Source: an uncultured Prevotellaceae bacterium
GTDB lineage: Bacteria > Bacteroidota > Bacteroidia > Bacteroidales > Bacteroidaceae
Reading direction: 5' to 3'
Assembly (NCBI GenBank): GCA_900319225.1
Contig: ONNV01000005.1
Location: 1 to 64,000 of the forward strand
Length of the DNA: 64,000 nt
In this document: one piece after another, positions 55,052 to 64,000 of the stretch
Layout of the letters: every line of letters starts with the position of its first letter
Numbering within the stretch: position 1 is the first letter of the stretch
Translations under genes and position numbers: made by a program
Notes under the pieces: model-generated
What the model saw: only the letters and a program-made list of their open reading frames with translations
What the model was told of the DNA's origin: nothing
Databases searched by the model: none

Positions 55052-56233
55052 ATGAAGAAATCGATACTCCTTTTTGCGGCAGTCCTGCTTATGGTGCCGT
55101 TTCTGGCGGGTTCATGTAAAAGCAAAAAACGTTTCTTATTAGATGTGGTTGAGCAGGATTATGTAAACAAGTCCTCTCAGACGGTCCATGGTGTAGAGGT
55201 CAAGGAACAGCTGCCTCTGGGTGCGTCCGATATATTCGTATGCGATACATTCATTGTGGTTATGACAAATGGCGGACAGCAGCCAAGAATGCATGTCTAT
55301 TCCACAAACTGGCAGCCGCTTGGCGAGTTCTGCAACATAGGACGTGCCAGGAATGAGTTCCTAAGTTATCCCAAGCTGCTGTCCGGACAGTATTACAGGA
55401 AACCGGACGGTACCGTACTCATTCCCCTTATGGACGGCGCTTCGAATGGAGTCAAGATGATGGACCTTACAGAATCTGTAAAACGTCAGACTACAGTCAT
55501 AACCCGGTTTAGGGAAGACCTTAAGGGTATCTGGACGGTCATAGCCAACCGGGATAACATGAAGATAAAATTCGGATCCAGAAGGGATGTCATATTGCTC
55601 AATGAGGATATGAACCTTACGTTTGAGTACAATAACTCTGTCAATGATTATCCCGATTACTATGGCGAACCGTATTTTGGCGTGCGTCAGGATACCACAG
55701 AGATAAGGAGGATCAGGTTGCTCCAAGAGGTAGAAGGAGAGGAGATGGAATATTTTGGAGGCCGAATTATAAAACATCCCCACCGTAACCTGATTGTGCA
55801 GCCATTATCCAGTCTGGACTATATCCTGTTCTTTGACATGGACAATGACCATATGTTTGCCGTGCACCAGAAAGGATCTGCCTCTTTTGACGGAAAACTT
55901 CCTGAATATGTCCGTACAGAGGGCGTGACCGAGGACGGTACACCTTATTATGAGGATAATCTGGTGGAACATTTCGGGTATCCCGCATTTGCGGAGTCAT
56001 ACTTTATGGTGCTTTACTATGCCGGTGATTACGGTGCCGGATCGGCCGATCCCGAGAACCCGGTTGCGGAACTGATGTTCTTTGACTGGGACGGCAAGTT
56101 CCTCAAGTCCGTAAAACTTGATACTTCAGTCTGGAGCATAACCTATGATGAGAACAACCATATCCTTTATGGAATGGATATGTTCACGGAGAGCCTGTAC
56201 AGCTTTGACCTGACATCGGTCTTGCCGGACTGA
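55052..56233 (+). CDS. 6-bladed beta-propeller lipoprotein (BF3164-like)
   Basis: A 393-residue lipoprotein (lipobox AGSC, Cys22). The rest is rich in beta strands in a repeating pattern (MHVYSTNWQPLGEFCNIGRARNE, LMFFDWDGKFLKSVKL, ITYDENNHILYGMD), as in the BF3164-like / DUF4934 six-bladed beta-propeller lipoproteins of Bacteroidetes. Function unknown; such proteins sit on the cell surface or in the periplasm and are often linked to secreted peptides. It has its own promoter and a palindrome at its 3' side. Confidence 0.8.
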   Translation: MKKSILLFAAVLLMVPFLAGSCKSKKRFLLDVVEQDYVNKSSQTVHGVEVKEQLPLGASDIFVCDTFIVVMTNGGQQPRMHVYSTNWQPLGEFCNIGRARNEFLSYPKLLSGQYYRKPDGTVLIPLMDGASNGVKMMDLTESVKRQTTVITRFREDLKGIWTVIANRDNMKIKFGSRRDVILLNEDMNLTFEYNNSVNDYPDYYGEPYFGVRQDTTEIRRIRLLQEVEGEEMEYFGGRIIKHPHRNLIVQPLSSLDYILFFDMDNDHMFAVHQKGSASFDGKLPEYVRTEGVTEDGTPYYEDNLVEHFGYPAFAESYFMVLYYAGDYGAGSADPENPVAELMFFDWDGKFLKSVKLDTSVWSITYDENNHILYGMDMFTESLYSFDLTSVLPD

Positions 56234-56314: not shown

Positions 56315-58483
56315 TCATTTCCCAACGCGTCCAAAAAATTCGCCCATGGTGTTGTTATAAACGTTTCCGTACACGCTTGCGTTGTAAACTGTGACGTGAG
56401 ATCCGGTAGTGTTGGTTGCAACCGTATAATAGAGGTCGCGGATGGATATGTCTGGATCATGTGCAATGGCAGCCTGGAAACCGCGGGTGAATCCGTTTGA
56501 CAGGTAAACGCCGATTTCCTCGCTCCACATATCGGCATGGCTGGCCTCCCAAGGGGTGGCTGCCGTGATGAACAGGGCACCGGGTACTCCCTGACTGGTC
56601 TGGCCCAGACCTCCGCTGTAGCATGATTCTATGGCGAACATTATCTTGCGGTGAGGCGTCTGGAGCAGTATGTCACGCATTTGGGCGTATTTCATCTTCT
56701 GCGAGTCTCCGAAACAGAGGCTTCCCACATTGCCGTGACCGCTCCAGAATATGAAAATGTTGTCATTCGGAGTGGCGTTGATCACGTGTGGCAGACGTTC
56801 CGATGCCCGTCCCTGAAGTATGTCTCCAAGGTCAGCAGGTGTCAGGTCACTGAGTATATAGTCTATGGCATCGTGTTCATAGACGTTGGGGCTGTCAGGA
56901 GTGATGAAAAGCTGGCCCGGGTATATGTTCTCTTTGTTATCGGCCAGGTCATCCTGACATATGAGAATAATGTGGTCGTCATCATAACCCTGATGCCTGA
57001 GCATCTTGTATGTGGCAAAGACATCGGCCTGGAAACGGTAGTTTGCCCAACCTGATGAGGCGGCAATCAGCAGTGCCCAACGGTCTTTAAGTGCAGGGTA
57101 GGTAGCGGTGGTGTCGTTTTCATTGAAATTCTGCATACGATCTGCCTTGAAGGTACCTATGTCCTTGGCCGATGTGGTGCGCTGGTTTCCGTCGGTGGAT
57201 ATGTACTCCACGGTGATATACTGACCTTCATAGAGTCTCCAGCGGCGGAATGTGCTGCCTATGACAGTGTTGCATTTCTTATAGGAGTTGCTGAATGTCC
57301 AGGAGCCGCTCACTCCGTCTATATCTGGTGTTACTCCCTGTGCCAACAGGCTGAAATTGCGGCTCATGTCATCGGGAAGCCATGAACCGCCACCGGTGGC
57401 GCGGCCGTCAATGACTGAGCGTATGGCATCGTTCAGCTGCTGGCCGGTCTGGGCCGACAGAACCGATGCGTATGCTACGATACAGAGTGCATCGTAGAAC
57501 TGGGGCTCGCCCTCAACGGGTTCCTGGCCGAACCGTTGACGATAGGCGTGACTGAATCCGGATTCTGGCGATGAGCAGAACTCAACTCCTTCATATACGG
57601 CGTTGCGGACATTGGCTGCGATGCTGTCCGATACAAAACCGTTACTGCTGTAAAACTGTGGCGTGAACAATGTTTCGCCAGCCTTGAGTGCGGCTTGGAG
57701 TTTCCCGATCTCATCATCCAGGGCAATAGCCGCTGATGCCGATGAGGGGCTGAACAGAAGCGCTCTGCGAGCATATGAAGGGTCGGTGCCGCAGACGTCA
57801 CGTACATATGACCGCAGTTCGGCCTCGCTCTTGTACAGATATACTCCCTGAACGGATATGCCATACTCCTGGGCGATGAAACCGAACCACTCGGCGTAGG
57901 CGTTGCGCGCCTCATTGTCATCGTCCGGTGCAAGGAGAATCATAGGCACCGAATCGTTGTATTGGGTGCTGGCCACACATGAAACCAGCACCTCTATCTG
58001 GTAGATGTCACTCTGGGAGAGGTTCCAGATGTAGGGTATATCGGCAAAAAGACGCTGGTACTCAACATTCGTGGCGCAGGGAGTGAGCATGGGTTTCTTC
58101 TCTCTGTTTCGGTTGATGGCTTTGGCCATCTGCTCGGCATGGGCCGATGTGGTGGGCCCCACGATGGCGGCAATATCCGGATCCTGGGCTATTGTGCGCA
58201 TATAATCCTCAATGTCCGGATCATCCTGGTTCTTGAAGGTGAGTTCAAGCCCTATTTTCGCGCTGCTGCCCCTTTGGGCGTAGAGTATGTTGGAAAGCGC
58301 CCAGTCCGATGTACGCTCCCAGCGGGCCTGCTCGTGGCTGTCCATGATGACGGCAACCTTGACCCTGCGGGCGGCGTCATCCTGCGGTGCAGGATTCTTT
58401 ATCTCATCCGTGCAACTGCAAACGAGCAGAGCCATCATGATGAAGGCCGATACAGTCAGGTTATGTCGATGGGGGCGTTTCAT
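56315..58483 (-). CDS. Type-1 binding domain fused to C13 legumain-like protease
   Basis: A 722-residue lipoprotein (Cys24, VCSC). Residues about 40-400 form a type-1 periplasmic ligand-binding fold like that of amino-acid ABC receptors (VKVAVIMDSHEQARW, IAAIVGPTTSAHAEQMA, FYDALCIVAYASVL). Residues about 465-722 are a clan CD cysteine peptidase of the C13 (legumain) type: RWALLIAASSGWANYRFQAD, YDDDHIILICQDDLADN, catalytic His583 in FIFWSGHGNVG, catalytic Cys621 in AIESCYSGG. It is the last gene of a five-gene run with a MACPF pore-former. Sensing by the binding domain may control proteolysis (inference). I know no characterised protein with this architecture. Confidence 0.85.
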   Translation of the reverse strand: MKRPHRHNLTVSAFIMMALLVCSCTDEIKNPAPQDDAARRVKVAVIMDSHEQARWERTSDWALSNILYAQRGSSAKIGLELTFKNQDDPDIEDYMRTIAQDPDIAAIVGPTTSAHAEQMAKAINRNREKKPMLTPCATNVEYQRLFADIPYIWNLSQSDIYQIEVLVSCVASTQYNDSVPMILLAPDDDNEARNAYAEWFGFIAQEYGISVQGVYLYKSEAELRSYVRDVCGTDPSYARRALLFSPSSASAAIALDDEIGKLQAALKAGETLFTPQFYSSNGFVSDSIAANVRNAVYEGVEFCSSPESGFSHAYRQRFGQEPVEGEPQFYDALCIVAYASVLSAQTGQQLNDAIRSVIDGRATGGGSWLPDDMSRNFSLLAQGVTPDIDGVSGSWTFSNSYKKCNTVIGSTFRRWRLYEGQYITVEYISTDGNQRTTSAKDIGTFKADRMQNFNENDTTATYPALKDRWALLIAASSGWANYRFQADVFATYKMLRHQGYDDDHIILICQDDLADNKENIYPGQLFITPDSPNVYEHDAIDYILSDLTPADLGDILQGRASERLPHVINATPNDNIFIFWSGHGNVGSLCFGDSQKMKYAQMRDILLQTPHRKIMFAIESCYSGGLGQTSQGVPGALFITAATPWEASHADMWSEEIGVYLSNGFTRGFQAAIAHDPDISIRDLYYTVATNTTGSHVTVYNASVYGNVYNNTMGEFFGRVGK

Positions 58484-58495
58484 ATACTGTGGGGC

Positions 58496-59551
58496 TTATT
58501 GTTCACGTTCGGCTCTTATCGCCTCGTCAAGATACTGTTCATACAGACGGCTGAATGTATCGGCCTGGTCATAACGGTCATCCCAGACGCAGATATGTTT
58601 CCTGAATTGGGGGGCTATCTCCACATCGGCCATACCCTCTTCAAGTCCCAGACGTCTGGTCTGCGGCCATTCAATACCGGACAGCCACTCCGTCAGACAT
58701 TCATTGACGACACGGCCTATATGTATTACGACCGAGAAAGGTATGCGGGAGCTCATACCGCTCATGTTCACCTCCATTCCTACCATGAGGGCGCTTGTGA
58801 GCGCGTTGTCGTTGAGGTACCTGATCACTCCCGTCTGAGCGCCGCGCAGCAGAGGGAATATGAATTCGTCATAGGCTTCATATTCCATAGCCCGTCTGAC
58901 CATAAAACGATAGGCTGAGTCCGGCATGCTGAAACCTGCCTCATCATGGGTCAGGATATTGATGCTGGTGGTACATTCCTTGCCGTTGTGGCTGCCGGGA
59001 TGGGCTTTACGGCCGTCAATGAATCCTTTTATTGATTCGTCTATAACCTCATATCGGGGGGCGGCGGCAAGTATGAGTGCGTCAAAATTGCTTGTCATTG
59101 CACCTGCCAGCCAGGATACTCCATAACGGTTTATGGATATGGTTGACACTCCCTGCAGGGTGTCATTGCTTTCAAGAAGCAGGATTCTGCTTCCCTTACC
59201 GCTAAGGGCGGGTGTGTTGCGTTGCACCGCGTTTATATACCAGGTGTTGCCTAAAATGAGGACAGTCGAGTCCTGCGACTTGTTGTCCAGGAGCCATTGG
59301 TCATACATGCTTATGGCTTGGGTCGTATCATTAGGCAGCAGAAGTCTGAGTTTTACTCCGCTTTCCTGTGCGAAAGCGAACACTCCCTCAATCATGGCGT
59401 CGTTAAAACCATTGTCACCCAGACCGGCGGGACTGGCCAGGACAGTCACGGTGGCTTGACGTGACTGTTCCCATGACAACCTATCAGGGCCGTCATGGGA
59501 ACAGGATGCAAGTATCAGGATAACTGCCGCCCAGATGATTTTTTGACGCAT
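58496..59551 (-). CDS. BMP-family (PnrA-like) binding lipoprotein
   Basis: A 351-residue lipoprotein (lipobox LASC, about Cys17). It has a type-1 periplasmic binding fold with features of the BMP/PnrA (Med) family: ATVTVLASPAGLGDNGFNDAMIEGVFAF near the start and SWLAGAMTS later. BMP proteins usually bind nucleosides for ABC import, but no permease or ATPase is next to it, so it may serve as a ligand sensor. It lies 12 bp before the C13 protease fusion gene and 22 bp after the unknown lipoprotein gene, that is, inside the same operon. Confidence 0.8.
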   Translation of the reverse strand: MRQKIIWAAVILILASCSHDGPDRLSWEQSRQATVTVLASPAGLGDNGFNDAMIEGVFAFAQESGVKLRLLLPNDTTQAISMYDQWLLDNKSQDSTVLILGNTWYINAVQRNTPALSGKGSRILLLESNDTLQGVSTISINRYGVSWLAGAMTSNFDALILAAAPRYEVIDESIKGFIDGRKAHPGSHNGKECTTSINILTHDEAGFSMPDSAYRFMVRRAMEYEAYDEFIFPLLRGAQTGVIRYLNDNALTSALMVGMEVNMSGMSSRIPFSVVIHIGRVVNECLTEWLSGIEWPQTRRLGLEEGMADVEIAPQFRKHICVWDDRYDQADTFSRLYEQYLDEAIRAEREQ

Positions 59552-59573
59552 CTTTTTCCTATTTGTTTTAAAC

Positions 59574-60926
59574 CTAATTCAATATCAATGGTTTATAGCC
59601 GTCCCGGTACTCAACTTTACCTTCCAGCTCGTTTATCCTGCCAAAGTCACCGTGAAAGCGATAGGCTTTGACCGCGACGTATTTCTGGTCGTATTTCTGA
59701 TCGTGATTACGGCTGCTGCTATAGTAGTTTTCATCATAGACCTTTTCTCCTTTATAGTTCAGGACGTGACTGTCGCCGTTGTAACATCTGTATGAATTCC
59801 AGTAGTCATCTTTCAACTCGCTGCTCATCCAGTTGGAGTGCATTACGAACCAACGGTTACCCATGAATATGTAATTCAGCTTGTCATCGGCCTCTTTCCA
59901 TTTCTTTTTCTTCTGGCTGTAGTAATAACGTTTGTATTTGTGCTTGTTACTGGTCCAGTACATCCAGCTGTTGTCTCCGCAAAGATAATATGCTCCATCG
60001 GTAAATACGTTTTTATATAAGCTGTTCGGCATAAATTTTTCATTTCCTAATATCTTGTCGGCCATGTCGTTTTTCTGCCCGTTGTAAGTATTATAAAGGA
60101 AGCGGTTGAGTATCAGAAGTTCCTCTGATTTGGCATAACTGGAACTGTGGACGTAACCTTGCCAATCCCGGTCATCGAAGTAATGTGAATAGTGCCAGCC
60201 TTCCATACCTTGCTGACCGTTGCATGCGGGATCAAAATAGGGGGTGATGTCATTACGGTTATCATCAAAAGTTACAAGCAGACCATACTCCGTGCCTCCT
60301 TCACATGACTGCACGCATATCCAACGTCTGCCGTCGCTTGTCTTGAAGGTATCTCCCACGTTGACTCCTCCGTCCGAGTCATTATGCGGCCATGCCTGGG
60401 GAGACAAGAATATTATCTGTGTCAAATCAGGAATCAAAGGCATGTCAATATCTATGACCGCCACTTTTCCCTGACCTCTTTCGGGCCTGAATGTCAGTTT
60501 TCCCCTGCTGCCGAAATCAATTGTGACTGTGTCGCTCTGTGCCGATATGCCGGTAAATAACATCACCCGTCCGAAATCTGCCATGAATTTGGCCTTGGCG
60601 TCTTCAAAATCCTGTGCAATTCTGTAACGTGCCGATGGCGTTGATTCGTACAGGAGTTGTCCGTAGTCGGCCTTGCGTTGTCGTGAAGGGCTTTCAAGCG
60701 TTGTTACTGTAACAGAGTCATTGTCGCATAACAGGTTTGAGAAAAGGTGTAGTGCTATTGCTATCGAGTCCTCTCTGGTCAGTCCTTCATCAGAGGTGTC
60801 GCCGGTTATGGATTCATCTTCATCATCCGTGTTCAGGTTGACCTTGTCGTTCGGGTCACAGGATGTCATGTTGAAGAGAGTCATACATAACATCAGAAAG
60901 CAAATAGGGAAAAGGGTTTTCTTCAT
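59574..60926 (-). CDS. Unknown acidic-leader lipoprotein in MACPF operon
   Basis: A 450-residue lipoprotein (Cys23, MTSC) followed by an acidic segment NTDDEDESITGDTSDEG, which resembles the surface export signal of Bacteroidetes lipoproteins. No named domain is recognised. The middle contains GDTFKTSDGRRWICVQSCEGGTEY and the C-terminal half is very rich in Tyr, Asn and Lys (WMYWTSNKHKYKRYYYSQKKKK). It lies 24 bp after the MACPF gene and 22 bp before the BMP-like gene. Confidence 0.75.
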   Translation of the reverse strand: MKKTLFPICFLMLCMTLFNMTSCDPNDKVNLNTDDEDESITGDTSDEGLTREDSIAIALHLFSNLLCDNDSVTVTTLESPSRQRKADYGQLLYESTPSARYRIAQDFEDAKAKFMADFGRVMLFTGISAQSDTVTIDFGSRGKLTFRPERGQGKVAVIDIDMPLIPDLTQIIFLSPQAWPHNDSDGGVNVGDTFKTSDGRRWICVQSCEGGTEYGLLVTFDDNRNDITPYFDPACNGQQGMEGWHYSHYFDDRDWQGYVHSSSYAKSEELLILNRFLYNTYNGQKNDMADKILGNEKFMPNSLYKNVFTDGAYYLCGDNSWMYWTSNKHKYKRYYYSQKKKKWKEADDKLNYIFMGNRWFVMHSNWMSSELKDDYWNSYRCYNGDSHVLNYKGEKVYDENYYSSSRNHDQKYDQKYVAVKAYRFHGDFGRINELEGKVEYRDGYKPLILN

Positions 60927-60950
60927 ATCTTAATCTTTGTTGCTGTTTCG

Positions 60951-63320
60951 TTACTGTTCCAGTTGAGGATGAGTGTATCCTGAATTGCGGTAAAGCCTTA
61001 CGGGATACCAGTTCTTGTATTCCTTGTCAATAGGACATATCTCTACGGAGTAATCCGGCGACAACATCAAAGCGCTGCCGCCCGTGGTCTTATCATCGCG
61101 TGTGTTCTTGAACGGGATGAAACACTTCTCGCCGCGATAGCACAGGATCCTGTCATCAAGCTCCTTTCCGGATATAAAGTCGTGATACATCATGCATCCG
61201 TCAAAAGTGGCTTCAAATCCTGTCTGCTGATTCATGAACAGGCTTTTGGGGTTGTTGCCCACATACTTTATCAGGGCATCCAGGTCTTTCTGGGTGGGCA
61301 GATACCATATTCCGTCGTCTATGGCTCCAACCTGTGACTCCTCGGTTCCTAAATCATAACACTTATATGCGAGCGGGTTACGGGGATCGAAAATGTTGGT
61401 ATAGAGTACATGGTTGAGTATCAGCTCCTGATAATGCCAGTCTGTAAGGCTGAAACGTTCTCCGAATCCAAGTTGGGTATCGGCATTCCTGCGTACCCAG
61501 AATCCGGGGCCTATCTTGACTATGGGGTAGGGATCATGCAAGGGTATCCTGACCCACTCATTCCTTACTTCCATTTTGTAATCCGGGATGTTGATGCCAA
61601 GGCTGTTTGAATAGAATGCGCCGTCTATATAATATAAGGTGGTGATTATGTCGCCGGGATGGAAGCCATCCAACGGACGGATATAACAGCCTCCTGCTTT
61701 ATCAAAGGTAACCTCGGACGGAGGATTATCTCCGTCACCTATGAATATGCCGCGTCTGATGTTGGTGCGGTTCCTGAAAATAGGGTAGTAGATGTTGACC
61801 CTTCGGTCGGAGCGCAGTTCAGGGACGTATTCATGACAGATCTCCACTTTGGGCAGCTTGTCATAATAGACCACTTTGGCAAAGGTGCTGTCCTGGGACT
61901 CACTGAATCTTTCCATCTCATCGGTGACGGTAAAACAGTAGTAATTGTCAAGTGACAGCTCCTGGAGCCGTTCACCTACCAGACCAGCCTCGTAATATGC
62001 TATCTCAAGAATGTGGTTTATGATTTCTGTGCGAGCCTTTTCATTTGTGAATAACTGCCAAATGGGTTGCAGCAGACATCGTACCAAAGATACGCTCTGA
62101 GGGTTATCGGGATCAATGCTCTTGAGCCAGTTACCCAGTTCCACCTCATCGATTTGTGAGTAGGGGTCTTTTGTGTTGGGGTGTTTTATCAGTGAACTGA
62201 CGGCTTCATCGGTACCTCCGTATATGTCAAAATGAAGCCCGTCTTTAGTATTGCATATGGAGTGCGATGTCTCTTTGTTCTCCCAGGATTCCTGAGCATC
62301 TCCGTTCTTGTACTTCATGTACCTGTTGATCTCTTCTTTACTGGTCTCTTCAGACTTGAAGTTGGCACTGTAGTCCAATCGTCCGCCAAGATCGGAATAG
62401 ATAACCATATGCGTCCCGTACTTGCTGACCAGTTTCTTTACATTCTCCCGGGTGGGGTTGTCGTTTACCTGGTCGTAAAGGTCACGGAACGCGTTTGTGA
62501 AGATGTCCTGACCTTCACGTATGATGCTTTGGACCTTGCCTTCGTCAAGGTAGCGTGTGGCAACTACTTTGGTCAGGGAGCTGTATCCGAAAGACTGCTG
62601 ACTCAGGTCATACTCATGAGTGCTCTCGAATTTTGTCACACTCTTGTTGCAGAACAGGAACTTGACTTCAGTGGTGGTTTGTTTGCTCATCCACAGGGAC
62701 ATCTCCTCAATGCTGTATGAACTGTGCAGATCCAGGCTTTGCATGGCACGCCCCTCCTGAGAGATGACTGTTCCCCATTTGAGCTCGGCCTGAAGGAGTT
62801 TGTCATAATCCAGAATGGGCTCCGTGACACTCTTGGGGTCCATATAGTCCATAGTCATGTCATAACCGAATCCCACACGTGCCTTACGTCCTATGGAGTC
62901 GTCCGGCAATGAGTTGCTGCTCTCATCGGACTGACTGCGCTGATGTACGGTAATCTGTGCGTTGACAGGTGCGGACGGTGACTGATTCCTGAGTTGAATG
63001 TCAATTGTTCCTTCGCGGCTGCGGGTGTTATCGTTGGGGCTTACGTAGAAAGTAAGCCTTCCGTTGCGACTTACCGTATCGGCCTCAAGTCCTATCCAGC
63101 TGCAGTCAGTGGTGGCCATAAGATTGTCATAATTCAGGTCCTCAGTGTTTAGCTGTACCGTTATGTTGTAGTAGCGCCCAAGATAGCTTATGTCGATGTC
63201 CTGTTCGCTTGTAATGATCGCGTTCTCCTGATCCGGACGTTCTGGCTTCTCAAAACAGGAAGACAGCAGGCAGACTGCAGTCAGAATCAATATTGAATAT
63301 GAACTGATTATTCTTTTCAT
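60951..63320 (-). CDS. BACON-MACPF pore-forming lipoprotein
   Basis: A 789-residue lipoprotein (Cys22, LSSC). Residues about 40-128 resemble a BACON/Ig-like domain (CSWIGLEADTVSRNGRLTFYVSPNDNTRSREG). Residues about 150-480 form a MACPF domain, with the signature KYGTHMVIYSDLGG (YGTH at 301-304). The C-terminal 300 residues contain WYLPTQKDLDALIKYVG and end in a Fibrobacter-type sulfatase-modifying-like fold (low confidence). Some Bacteroides MACPF lipoproteins (BSAPs) kill related strains by pore formation. It is the second gene of the operon and its product could be the pore component of the locus. Confidence 0.85.
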   Translation of the reverse strand: MKRIISSYSILILTAVCLLSSCFEKPERPDQENAIITSEQDIDISYLGRYYNITVQLNTEDLNYDNLMATTDCSWIGLEADTVSRNGRLTFYVSPNDNTRSREGTIDIQLRNQSPSAPVNAQITVHQRSQSDESSNSLPDDSIGRKARVGFGYDMTMDYMDPKSVTEPILDYDKLLQAELKWGTVISQEGRAMQSLDLHSSYSIEEMSLWMSKQTTTEVKFLFCNKSVTKFESTHEYDLSQQSFGYSSLTKVVATRYLDEGKVQSIIREGQDIFTNAFRDLYDQVNDNPTRENVKKLVSKYGTHMVIYSDLGGRLDYSANFKSEETSKEEINRYMKYKNGDAQESWENKETSHSICNTKDGLHFDIYGGTDEAVSSLIKHPNTKDPYSQIDEVELGNWLKSIDPDNPQSVSLVRCLLQPIWQLFTNEKARTEIINHILEIAYYEAGLVGERLQELSLDNYYCFTVTDEMERFSESQDSTFAKVVYYDKLPKVEICHEYVPELRSDRRVNIYYPIFRNRTNIRRGIFIGDGDNPPSEVTFDKAGGCYIRPLDGFHPGDIITTLYYIDGAFYSNSLGINIPDYKMEVRNEWVRIPLHDPYPIVKIGPGFWVRRNADTQLGFGERFSLTDWHYQELILNHVLYTNIFDPRNPLAYKCYDLGTEESQVGAIDDGIWYLPTQKDLDALIKYVGNNPKSLFMNQQTGFEATFDGCMMYHDFISGKELDDRILCYRGEKCFIPFKNTRDDKTTGGSALMLSPDYSVEICPIDKEYKNWYPVRLYRNSGYTHPQLEQ

Positions 63321-63341
63321 ATTTGTAAGAATCAGGTCCGG

Positions 63342-64000
63342 TTAGAAGGAGACTTCCTGTGGGTTCCAGTAATAGAAGTATTTGCTCTCCTTGCTACGTA
63401 CCATGCGTCCGTTCATGAGGTTCCAGCCCGGCAGTCCCTCAATATCGCCTTCCTGCGGTGTTCCGTCAGTCTTTTTTAGAAGAAAATCCTTTCCTTCCTT
63501 ATAAACAAGGTAATACGGCTTTGAGGAATCCAATTGTCCGTCAAGGGTGATGGAGTACGGCCATTCGTAGCCTATTACGGTGTAGCTTGGCTGGTATGAT
63601 ACGTTCAACAGACTCAATGAACCCGGTATGCCGTTGTTCATGTAAATGATGCTGTCTGTCGGTGCAGGGTAGATGCTGTCCTTCTCAACAAAACAACGGC
63701 CGTTGAGCCAGCATACGTTATAGGCGGCATCACCGTAGAATGTGTAGCCGCAACTCAGGTTGACATGCTGGTTGTATATGGGATAGACCACATGTACCAG
63801 TTTGATTCCTATGTCGGGCAGTTCTACCTTTTCGCGGCATACCGTGGCAACATAACGTCCGGCCGATACTATATTGCATACATCGGGCTGGTCAAATGTG
63901 ACGGTATCCTTGCCCATATTGCATGTTACGCTGCCGGGAATCCTGAAACTAGTGTTGCAGTAGTTGAAATATCCGGCTTCTTTTATCAGTTCCTGAGCGG
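63342..64000 (-). CDS. Partial unknown exported protein in MACPF operon
   Basis: The frame is open from 63342 to the window edge (no stop in the 83 bases beyond ATG 63917), so the gene starts outside the window. Visible are about 219 residues, beta-rich, with many Tyr and several Cys (GYFNYCNTSFRIPGS, LSCGYTFYGD, NVCWLNGRCF, GYEWPYSITLDG). No domain is recognised. It ends 21 bp before the MACPF gene on the same strand and thus belongs to the same operon. Confidence 0.7.
   Translation of the reverse strand, partial: AQELIKEAGYFNYCNTSFRIPGSVTCNMGKDTVTFDQPDVCNIVSAGRYVATVCREKVELPDIGIKLVHVVYPIYNQHVNLSCGYTFYGDAAYNVCWLNGRCFVEKDSIYPAPTDSIIYMNNGIPGSLSLLNVSYQPSYTVIGYEWPYSITLDGQLDSSKPYYLVYKEGKDFLLKKTDGTPQEGDIEGLPGWNLMNGRMVRSKESKYFYYWNPQEVSF

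Follow-up and report, generated by a model that had tools for sequence, protein, structure and literature searches.

A conserved six-gene lipoprotein operon of gut and rumen bacteria that may encode a MACPF pore armed by a legumain-type protease

The window analysed here, the first 64,000 nucleotides of contig ONNV01000005.1 from an uncultured Prevotellaceae bacterium (assembly GCA_900319225.1), ends inside a conserved operon of six lipoprotein genes. All six lie on the minus strand, in the order mA, mB, mC, U, BMP, ANF-C13 (open reading frame calls and Pfam, on the contig). They encode three proteins of the MACPF class (mA, mB and mC), a member of a family without Pfam match (U), a Bmp-like binding protein (BMP) and a fusion of an ANF-type binding domain with a C13 peptidase of the legumain type (ANF-C13; table 1). 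What might such a set of proteins do? We favour, tentatively and with somewhat less than even confidence, the view that they form what is probably a mixed pore on competing bacteria, armed by the legumain domain, which would cleave its partners, likely under the control of a ligand. For this mechanism of a surface weapon we draw on gene linkage and family precedent only.

An earlier note, made from the letters of the window, had listed five minus-strand frames in a row separated by 12, 22, 24 and 21 bp, and the open reading frame calls bear this out. It had also placed MACPF, C13 and two binding-domain proteins in one tight lipoprotein operon; this stands, with both binding domains of type 1, except that its single MACPF gene becomes three genes of the MACPF class. 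The frame that it labelled a partial unknown (63342-63998) proves, on the contig beyond the window, to belong to a second MACPF lipoprotein gene, mB, of which it is the 3' part; the end of the window cuts this gene, and the fragment itself gives no Pfam match. Because they are so tightly spaced, the six genes are likely to be transcribed as one.

Is the association of MACPF with C13 greater than chance? Among 201 genomes of the same family, C13 matches occur in 38 and MACPF matches in 15 (25 matches), and MACPF is also present in 7 of the 24 genomes that have a full-length C13 gene (p 5e-4). In the neighbourhood check proposed in the note, 16 of these 25 MACPF matches have a full-length ANF-C13 gene within 10 kb, where random placement would give 0.15, and this is so in 7/7 genomes. 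Across 374 genomes of the order, full-length C13 was found in 7, MACPF in 24 (33 matches) and both in 4. Here a full-length ANF-C13 gene stands no further than 10 kb from 9/33 MACPF matches, against 0.08 expected, in 4/4 genomes from four families. The window genome is counted in both samples.

Lack of conservation, which the note had named as fatal to its proposal, is not what we found: other genera and families show this gene order too. We drew on 33 stretches around C13 matches in same-family genomes and on 79 loci from a contig search (the best 80 of 460), the latter biased to window-like sequences; individual loci carry numbers with the prefix L. A gene counted as a neighbour if it matched a signal-peptide-free profile over at least 40% of the profile and lay no more than 9 kb away on the same strand; loci ending at contig ends were scored as partner-less. 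With exact duplicates removed, near-identical sequences (L050, L052) kept and L092 counted for both its genes, there are 94 unique ANF-C13 genes. BMP adjoins 83 of these, U 38, any MACPF 41, and MACPF together with U 24; mA, mB and mC occur together near 21. In 21/21 three-class operons mA leads, while the order of mB and mC is interchangeable. The spacing, measured in 19 three-class operons, is mostly -74 to +54 bp, so that neighbouring frames often overlap or almost touch; outliers stand at 108, 126 and 199 bp, and two larger values (691 and 1079 bp) are genes missed by the gene caller.

In the family sample, where this bias is weaker, 31 genes remain of 35 loci after removal of four whose C13 gene lacks an ANF part (ten weak or short matches were omitted from the start). 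Their neighbours are BMP in 27, U in 12, MACPF in 7 and CL6, a family taken up below, in 7. At least three MACPF genes are present in 7/7 of the MACPF loci and all three classes in 6/7. Named carriers of the three-class operon are Prevotella communis E15-14 (complete genome, L043) and Paraprevotella xylaniphila YIT 11841 (L073). In Parabacteroides distasonis An897 (L075) a single MACPF accompanies BMP and ANF-C13, as it does in each of four Fibrobacterales loci from metagenome-assembled genomes (L059-L062); the two Fibrobacterales MACPF proteins compared with Pfam match at 1e-12 and 1.1e-13. The carriers are gut and rumen bacteria.

To which pore-forming family do the three classes belong? At E <= 0.01, Pfam MACPF matches 24/24 mC, 19/19 mB and 10/21 mA members; since the other 11 mA members have no match, mA is a divergent class. 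For mB of the window genome the score fell under the 21.5-bit cut-off in one run (20.4 bits) and over it in another (22 bits). BACON domains were matched in 16/21 mA and 17/24 mC members, and the thiol-activated cytolysin family, PF01289, in none of 64 mA, mB and mC members at E <= 0.01. By these matches the three are MACPF-superfamily proteins (PF01823), BSAP-like in build and, on the criterion of PF01289, outside the CDCLs. Separately, mB has grown to about 1185 residues in L047 (5406-8960) and L048 (4646-8203), both operons without U; the extra part in L047 contains beta-helix repeats (Pfam 1.1e-11).

A surface-export signal proposed for B. fragilis, SDDDD (PMC5080379), places acidic residues after the lipid-bearing Cys, as is likewise found in most of the MACPF and U members. 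We scored leaders by a simple motif search that asks for at least two acidic residues at +2 to +6 after that Cys, and that sometimes takes the wrong Cys. Acidic leaders make up 15/20 of the distinct leaders in mA, 14/18 in mB, 17/23 in mC and 23/32 in U. Judged by their leaders, the six products are likely to be anchored on the outer face of the cell.

The protease itself is readily recognized. Pfam finds C13 in the window protein at 3e-47, and a profile of 20 ANF-C13 members has its best matches among legumains (human legumain, 2.9e-55), with further matches to GPI transamidase (2e-48) and to plant asparaginyl ligases. Pfam's ANF_receptor match is weak (0.0079, below its cut-off); the N-terminal half of the profile matches branched-chain amino-acid-binding proteins (4gnr, 2.7e-11). 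In an alignment of 95 unique ANF-C13 sequences, made without selection for the active site, the catalytic His and Cys are each kept in 93, the other two being gaps. The S1 pocket of legumain comprises Arg44, Glu187 and Asp231 in human numbering. The equivalent of Arg44 is kept in 94/95 (the other is a gap), and at the position of Glu187 there is a Glu in 78 sequences and an Asp in 15. ANF-C13 thus shares with legumain and GPI transamidase the C13 domain, the catalytic His and Cys and the S1 Arg. It differs from legumain in its added N-terminal ANF-type domain, in being a lipoprotein, in a residue that is mostly Asn at the position of Asp231, and in having no legumain-type C-terminal prodomain: by Pfam, C13 of the window protein ends at residue 702 of 722.

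Two further proteins complete the set. Pfam Bmp matches the 351-residue BMP at 0.0029, below its cut-off, and a 24-member BMP profile matches Lbp (7x0r, 4.4e-19) and TmpC/PnrA (2fqw, 1.5e-14). The similarity to these and other Bmp nucleoside-binding lipoproteins spans almost the whole domain. Unlike them, BMP is paired with a C13 fusion in an operon whose six structural genes include no ABC permease, ATPase or SusC/D-like gene recognized by Pfam. U has no Pfam match, and its fold model (pLDDT 66) has no PDB match. Its family is conserved in the N-terminal part and variable in the C-terminal part, and its copy number varies, with two copies in L043 and one plus four larger ones in L025. These features, copy gains and a conserved and a variable part, would fit an immunity or targeting protein, without proving it; by position alone U is a candidate immunity lipoprotein. 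The four extra U-family proteins of L025 (10669-19650; 464-850 residues) stand in tandem behind ANF-C13, and are perhaps an immunity or targeting array.

How might these parts work together? The Bmp-like and ANF domains would bind small molecules, nucleoside-like and amino-acid-like if the families are a guide, and this binding would gate C13. The protease might then cut MACPF or U after Asn or Asp, arming or releasing pore subunits, so that a mixed pore could assemble on a neighbouring cell. U may serve as an immunity, inhibitor or scaffold lipoprotein.

Precedents exist for several of these steps. One is the killing of Bacteroidales by BSAPs, themselves MACPF lipoproteins (PMC12853789); as Bacteroidales proteins of this kind with an extra C-terminal part and acidic export signals (PMC12853789, PMC4999547), BSAPs resemble the proteins described here. 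BSAPs are described as single toxins, whereas here three MACPF classes are joined by C13 and two binding-domain proteins in each operon. The CDCLs, two- or three-component pore formers of Bacteroidota, share with the operon adjacent genes for related pore subunits and lipoprotein leaders. They are activated by a surface C11 protease of the caspase clan, form a complement-like pore and have an immunity lipoprotein encoded in their operon (PMC11169675). In contrast to the present proteins they belong by Pfam to PF01289 rather than MACPF, and the gene for their C11 protease lies outside the operon; this enzyme works on the target cell and cleaves after Arg or Lys. BcpT, a Bacteroidales toxin, likewise depends on cleavage by surface lipoprotein proteases, the C11 enzymes doripains and fragipain (PMC9308784); these cut after Arg and lie outside the toxin operon, and that source does not present BcpT as part of a MACPF operon. 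Finally, legumain (asparagine endopeptidase) cleaves a mammalian MACPF protein, perforin-2 (PMC7614779), in an animal endolysosomal system in which the genes lie apart.

Several adjacent pore genes, and activation by a protease, are thus already known separately in Bacteroidota; what is new is a legumain-type sensor-protease encoded together with the pore. The note had not recognized the combination, nor did the top matches listed by our search of the literature include a description of the operon (titles, starts of abstracts and passages, in the open literature and few subscription journals and preprints). In one paper on Prevotella and Paraprevotella peptidases (PMC9045265) the terms 'C13' and 'legumain' are absent from the main text. 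Neither PADLOC nor NCBIfam has a family that names the set. The note's suggestion of a defence system found no support, PADLOC, whose models cover known anti-phage systems, giving 0 matches for 7 proteins at E <= 0.01.

A number of results weigh against a dedicated, protease-armed pore. MACPF is absent near 53 of the 94 unique ANF-C13 genes (same strand, 9 kb), many of which have no recognized partner; C13 is therefore not dedicated to MACPF proteins. Conversely, 9/25 MACPF matches in the family sample and 24/33 in the order sample have no C13 neighbour. U is missing near 17 of the 41 MACPF-linked C13 genes and BMP near 11 of the 94, some of these loci being cut by contig ends. The window genome's own mA is among the 11 members without a Pfam MACPF match, and by the simple count acidic leaders are found in only 12/22 of BMP and 10/20 of ANF-C13. 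Since the equivalent of Asp231 is Asn in 82/95 sequences and Asp in 11/95, the specificity of ANF-C13 may differ from that of legumain. As for the precedent of perforin-2, the legumain cut is reported to be dispensable for pore formation in vitro and might even inactivate the pores (PMC7614779).

If C13 is not confined to MACPF loci, what is the constant part? It is the pair of BMP and ANF-C13, whose partners are exchangeable. Among the 94 unique genes the partners are MACPF in 41, CL6 in 12 (all with U), DUF4421 (CL8) in 8 and lipase-like proteins in 7. CL6 is a family of lipoproteins of about 750 residues that takes the place of MACPF beside U, BMP and ANF-C13 (for example L012 13593-15824), U being common to both versions of the module. 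It has a BACON-like start and an otherwise unassigned fold, with low-confidence Gly/Ala/Ser-rich helices at about 331-441; it has at least 114 homologues, and none among the matches listed has a Pfam domain. The window genome holds a second BMP and ANF-C13 pair on contig C4 (L007 4982-19999), whose neighbours are an AMP-binding enzyme, an unassigned lipoprotein, what looks by eye like a TolC/HlyD/RND efflux set, and three lipase-like lipoproteins, one over the Pfam secretory lipase cut-off and the other two homologous to that one. A quick C13 tree with 94 tips needs 19 changes of the partner label, against a mean of 45 for shuffled labels, and 8 of the MACPF label against 31 (200 shuffles); end-cut loci inflate these counts of changes. 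As the changes are far below the shuffled means, partner sets are mostly inherited with C13, with several switches.

The changing partners and the contig C4 pair favour the strongest competitor of the armed pore, which we nevertheless regard as somewhat unlikely: that BMP and ANF-C13 are a general surface sensor-protease, merely co-expressed with MACPF proteins, with host, dietary or its own surface proteins as targets. Opposed to it are the operons in which three MACPF genes precede U, BMP and C13 in an order that several families keep; the partner classes, too, track the C13 tree far beyond shuffled labels. The armed pore can also be put more boldly, in a form that we think rather improbable. 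The operon would then be a bacterial complement, self-contained and directed from the cell surface against membranes: Bmp and ANF-C13, as a ligand-gated legumain 'convertase', would arm a three-subunit MACPF pore, the whole being one version of a plug-in sensor-protease module reused with lipase-like and other lipoproteins in Bacteroidota and Fibrobacterales.

Might the complex instead bind and forage? In this unlikely alternative the BACON-bearing MACPF-class proteins would bind glycans or cells while the Bmp and ANF domains sense nutrients, as the BACON matches of mA and mC, and the suggestion that a Bacteroides MACPF aids adaptation to the gut (PMC2954219), would favour; yet SusC/D-like or ABC transporter genes are not recognized among the six structural genes, and side-by-side MACPF paralogues, like the precedents of BSAPs and CDCLs, are more in keeping with pores. 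Most improbable of all is a C13 transamidase or ligase, comparable to GPI transamidase and the plant peptide ligases, coupling the co-encoded lipoproteins to one another or to the surface: the profile matches to those enzymes speak for it, but legumains match best and the partner alignments reveal, by eye, no shared C-terminal sorting motif.

Were the armed pore correct, protease, sensor and pore would be inherited as one bacterial unit, and gut and rumen commensals would offer a test of how sensing and proteolysis trigger a MACPF pore of several subunits, a principle familiar in outline from complement and perforin-2. The recurring BMP and ANF-C13 pair offers a handle on further surface effectors, and U and CL6, families without a Pfam name, become concrete targets.

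What might control the operon? An AraC-type regulator, its N-terminal half apparently membrane-spanning (by eye), lies upstream of mA, and two close contigs from metagenome-assembled genomes (L050, L052) share the order AraC, mA, mB, mC, U, BMP, ANF-C13. The spacer between AraC and mA (contig 66557-66734, L003 6557-6734) is 76% identical to that of L050 overall, against 60, 56 and 65% for the AraC, mA and mB genes (DNA); one block has 55/59 bases in common with the spacers of L050 and L052. Inspection of this block by eye shows three TTTCAT(A/T)TTTG repeats at spacings of 21 and 22 bp, together with a GTCCCA...TGGGAC palindrome. We infer that the repeats upstream of mA are a putative binding site of the regulator, whose next relatives (E ~1e-95) adjoin ANF-C13 in L087, L091 and L093.

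Table 1. Features of the operon and its regulator; positions are those of the contig, and the window covers the first 64,000.
Feature	Position	Strand	Evidence
ANF-C13, 722-residue lipoprotein, type-1 binding domain and C13; last gene of the operon	56315..58483	-	Open reading frame and Pfam
ANF/type-1 binding domain, residues ~42-450, edges approximate	57134..58360	-	Pfam, member alignment, profile
C13 (legumain-type) peptidase domain, residues 468-702	56378..57082	-	Pfam 3e-47
His583 codon, predicted catalytic, SGHG motif	56735..56737	-	Invariant 20/20; 93/95 unique, rest gaps
Cys621 codon, predicted catalytic, ESCYSG motif	56621..56623	-	Invariant 20/20; 93/95 unique, rest gaps
BMP, Bmp/PnrA-like binding lipoprotein, 351 residues	58496..59551	-	Pfam Bmp 0.0029 and profile matches
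U, 450-residue lipoprotein, family without Pfam match	59574..60926	-	Pfam, family profiles
mC, BACON and MACPF lipoprotein, 789 residues	60951..63320	-	Pfam MACPF 7.5e-7
MACPF domain of mC, residues 272-432	62025..62507	-	Pfam
BACON-like domain of mC, residues 70-127	62940..63113	-	Pfam 1.4e-4, 22.2 bits, below 25-bit cut-off
mB, MACPF lipoprotein, 582 residues	63342-65090 (window part 63342..64000)	-	Pfam
mA, BACON-type lipoprotein, 486 residues, MACPF-related family	65096-66556, beyond window	-	Ends 5 bases above mB
AraC-type regulator, 354 residues	66735-67799, beyond window	-	HTH_18 4.5e-10; ends 178 bp above mA

Some further observations concern the surroundings of these genes. In L068 and L069, ANF-C13 lies near apparent phage-tail or contractile-injection genes (by eye), and in L069 its ANF and C13 parts are split into separate frames. 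In two Paraprevotella loci (L017, L018) the operon starts a few hundred bases past the apparent end of a 5S rRNA gene (by eye), at the end of the contig. In the window, a convergent gene on the plus strand (55052-56233) faces ANF-C13; its product has a weak TolB_like propeller match (0.0021, below cut-off), and a protein resembling it is encoded at L003 17382-18518.

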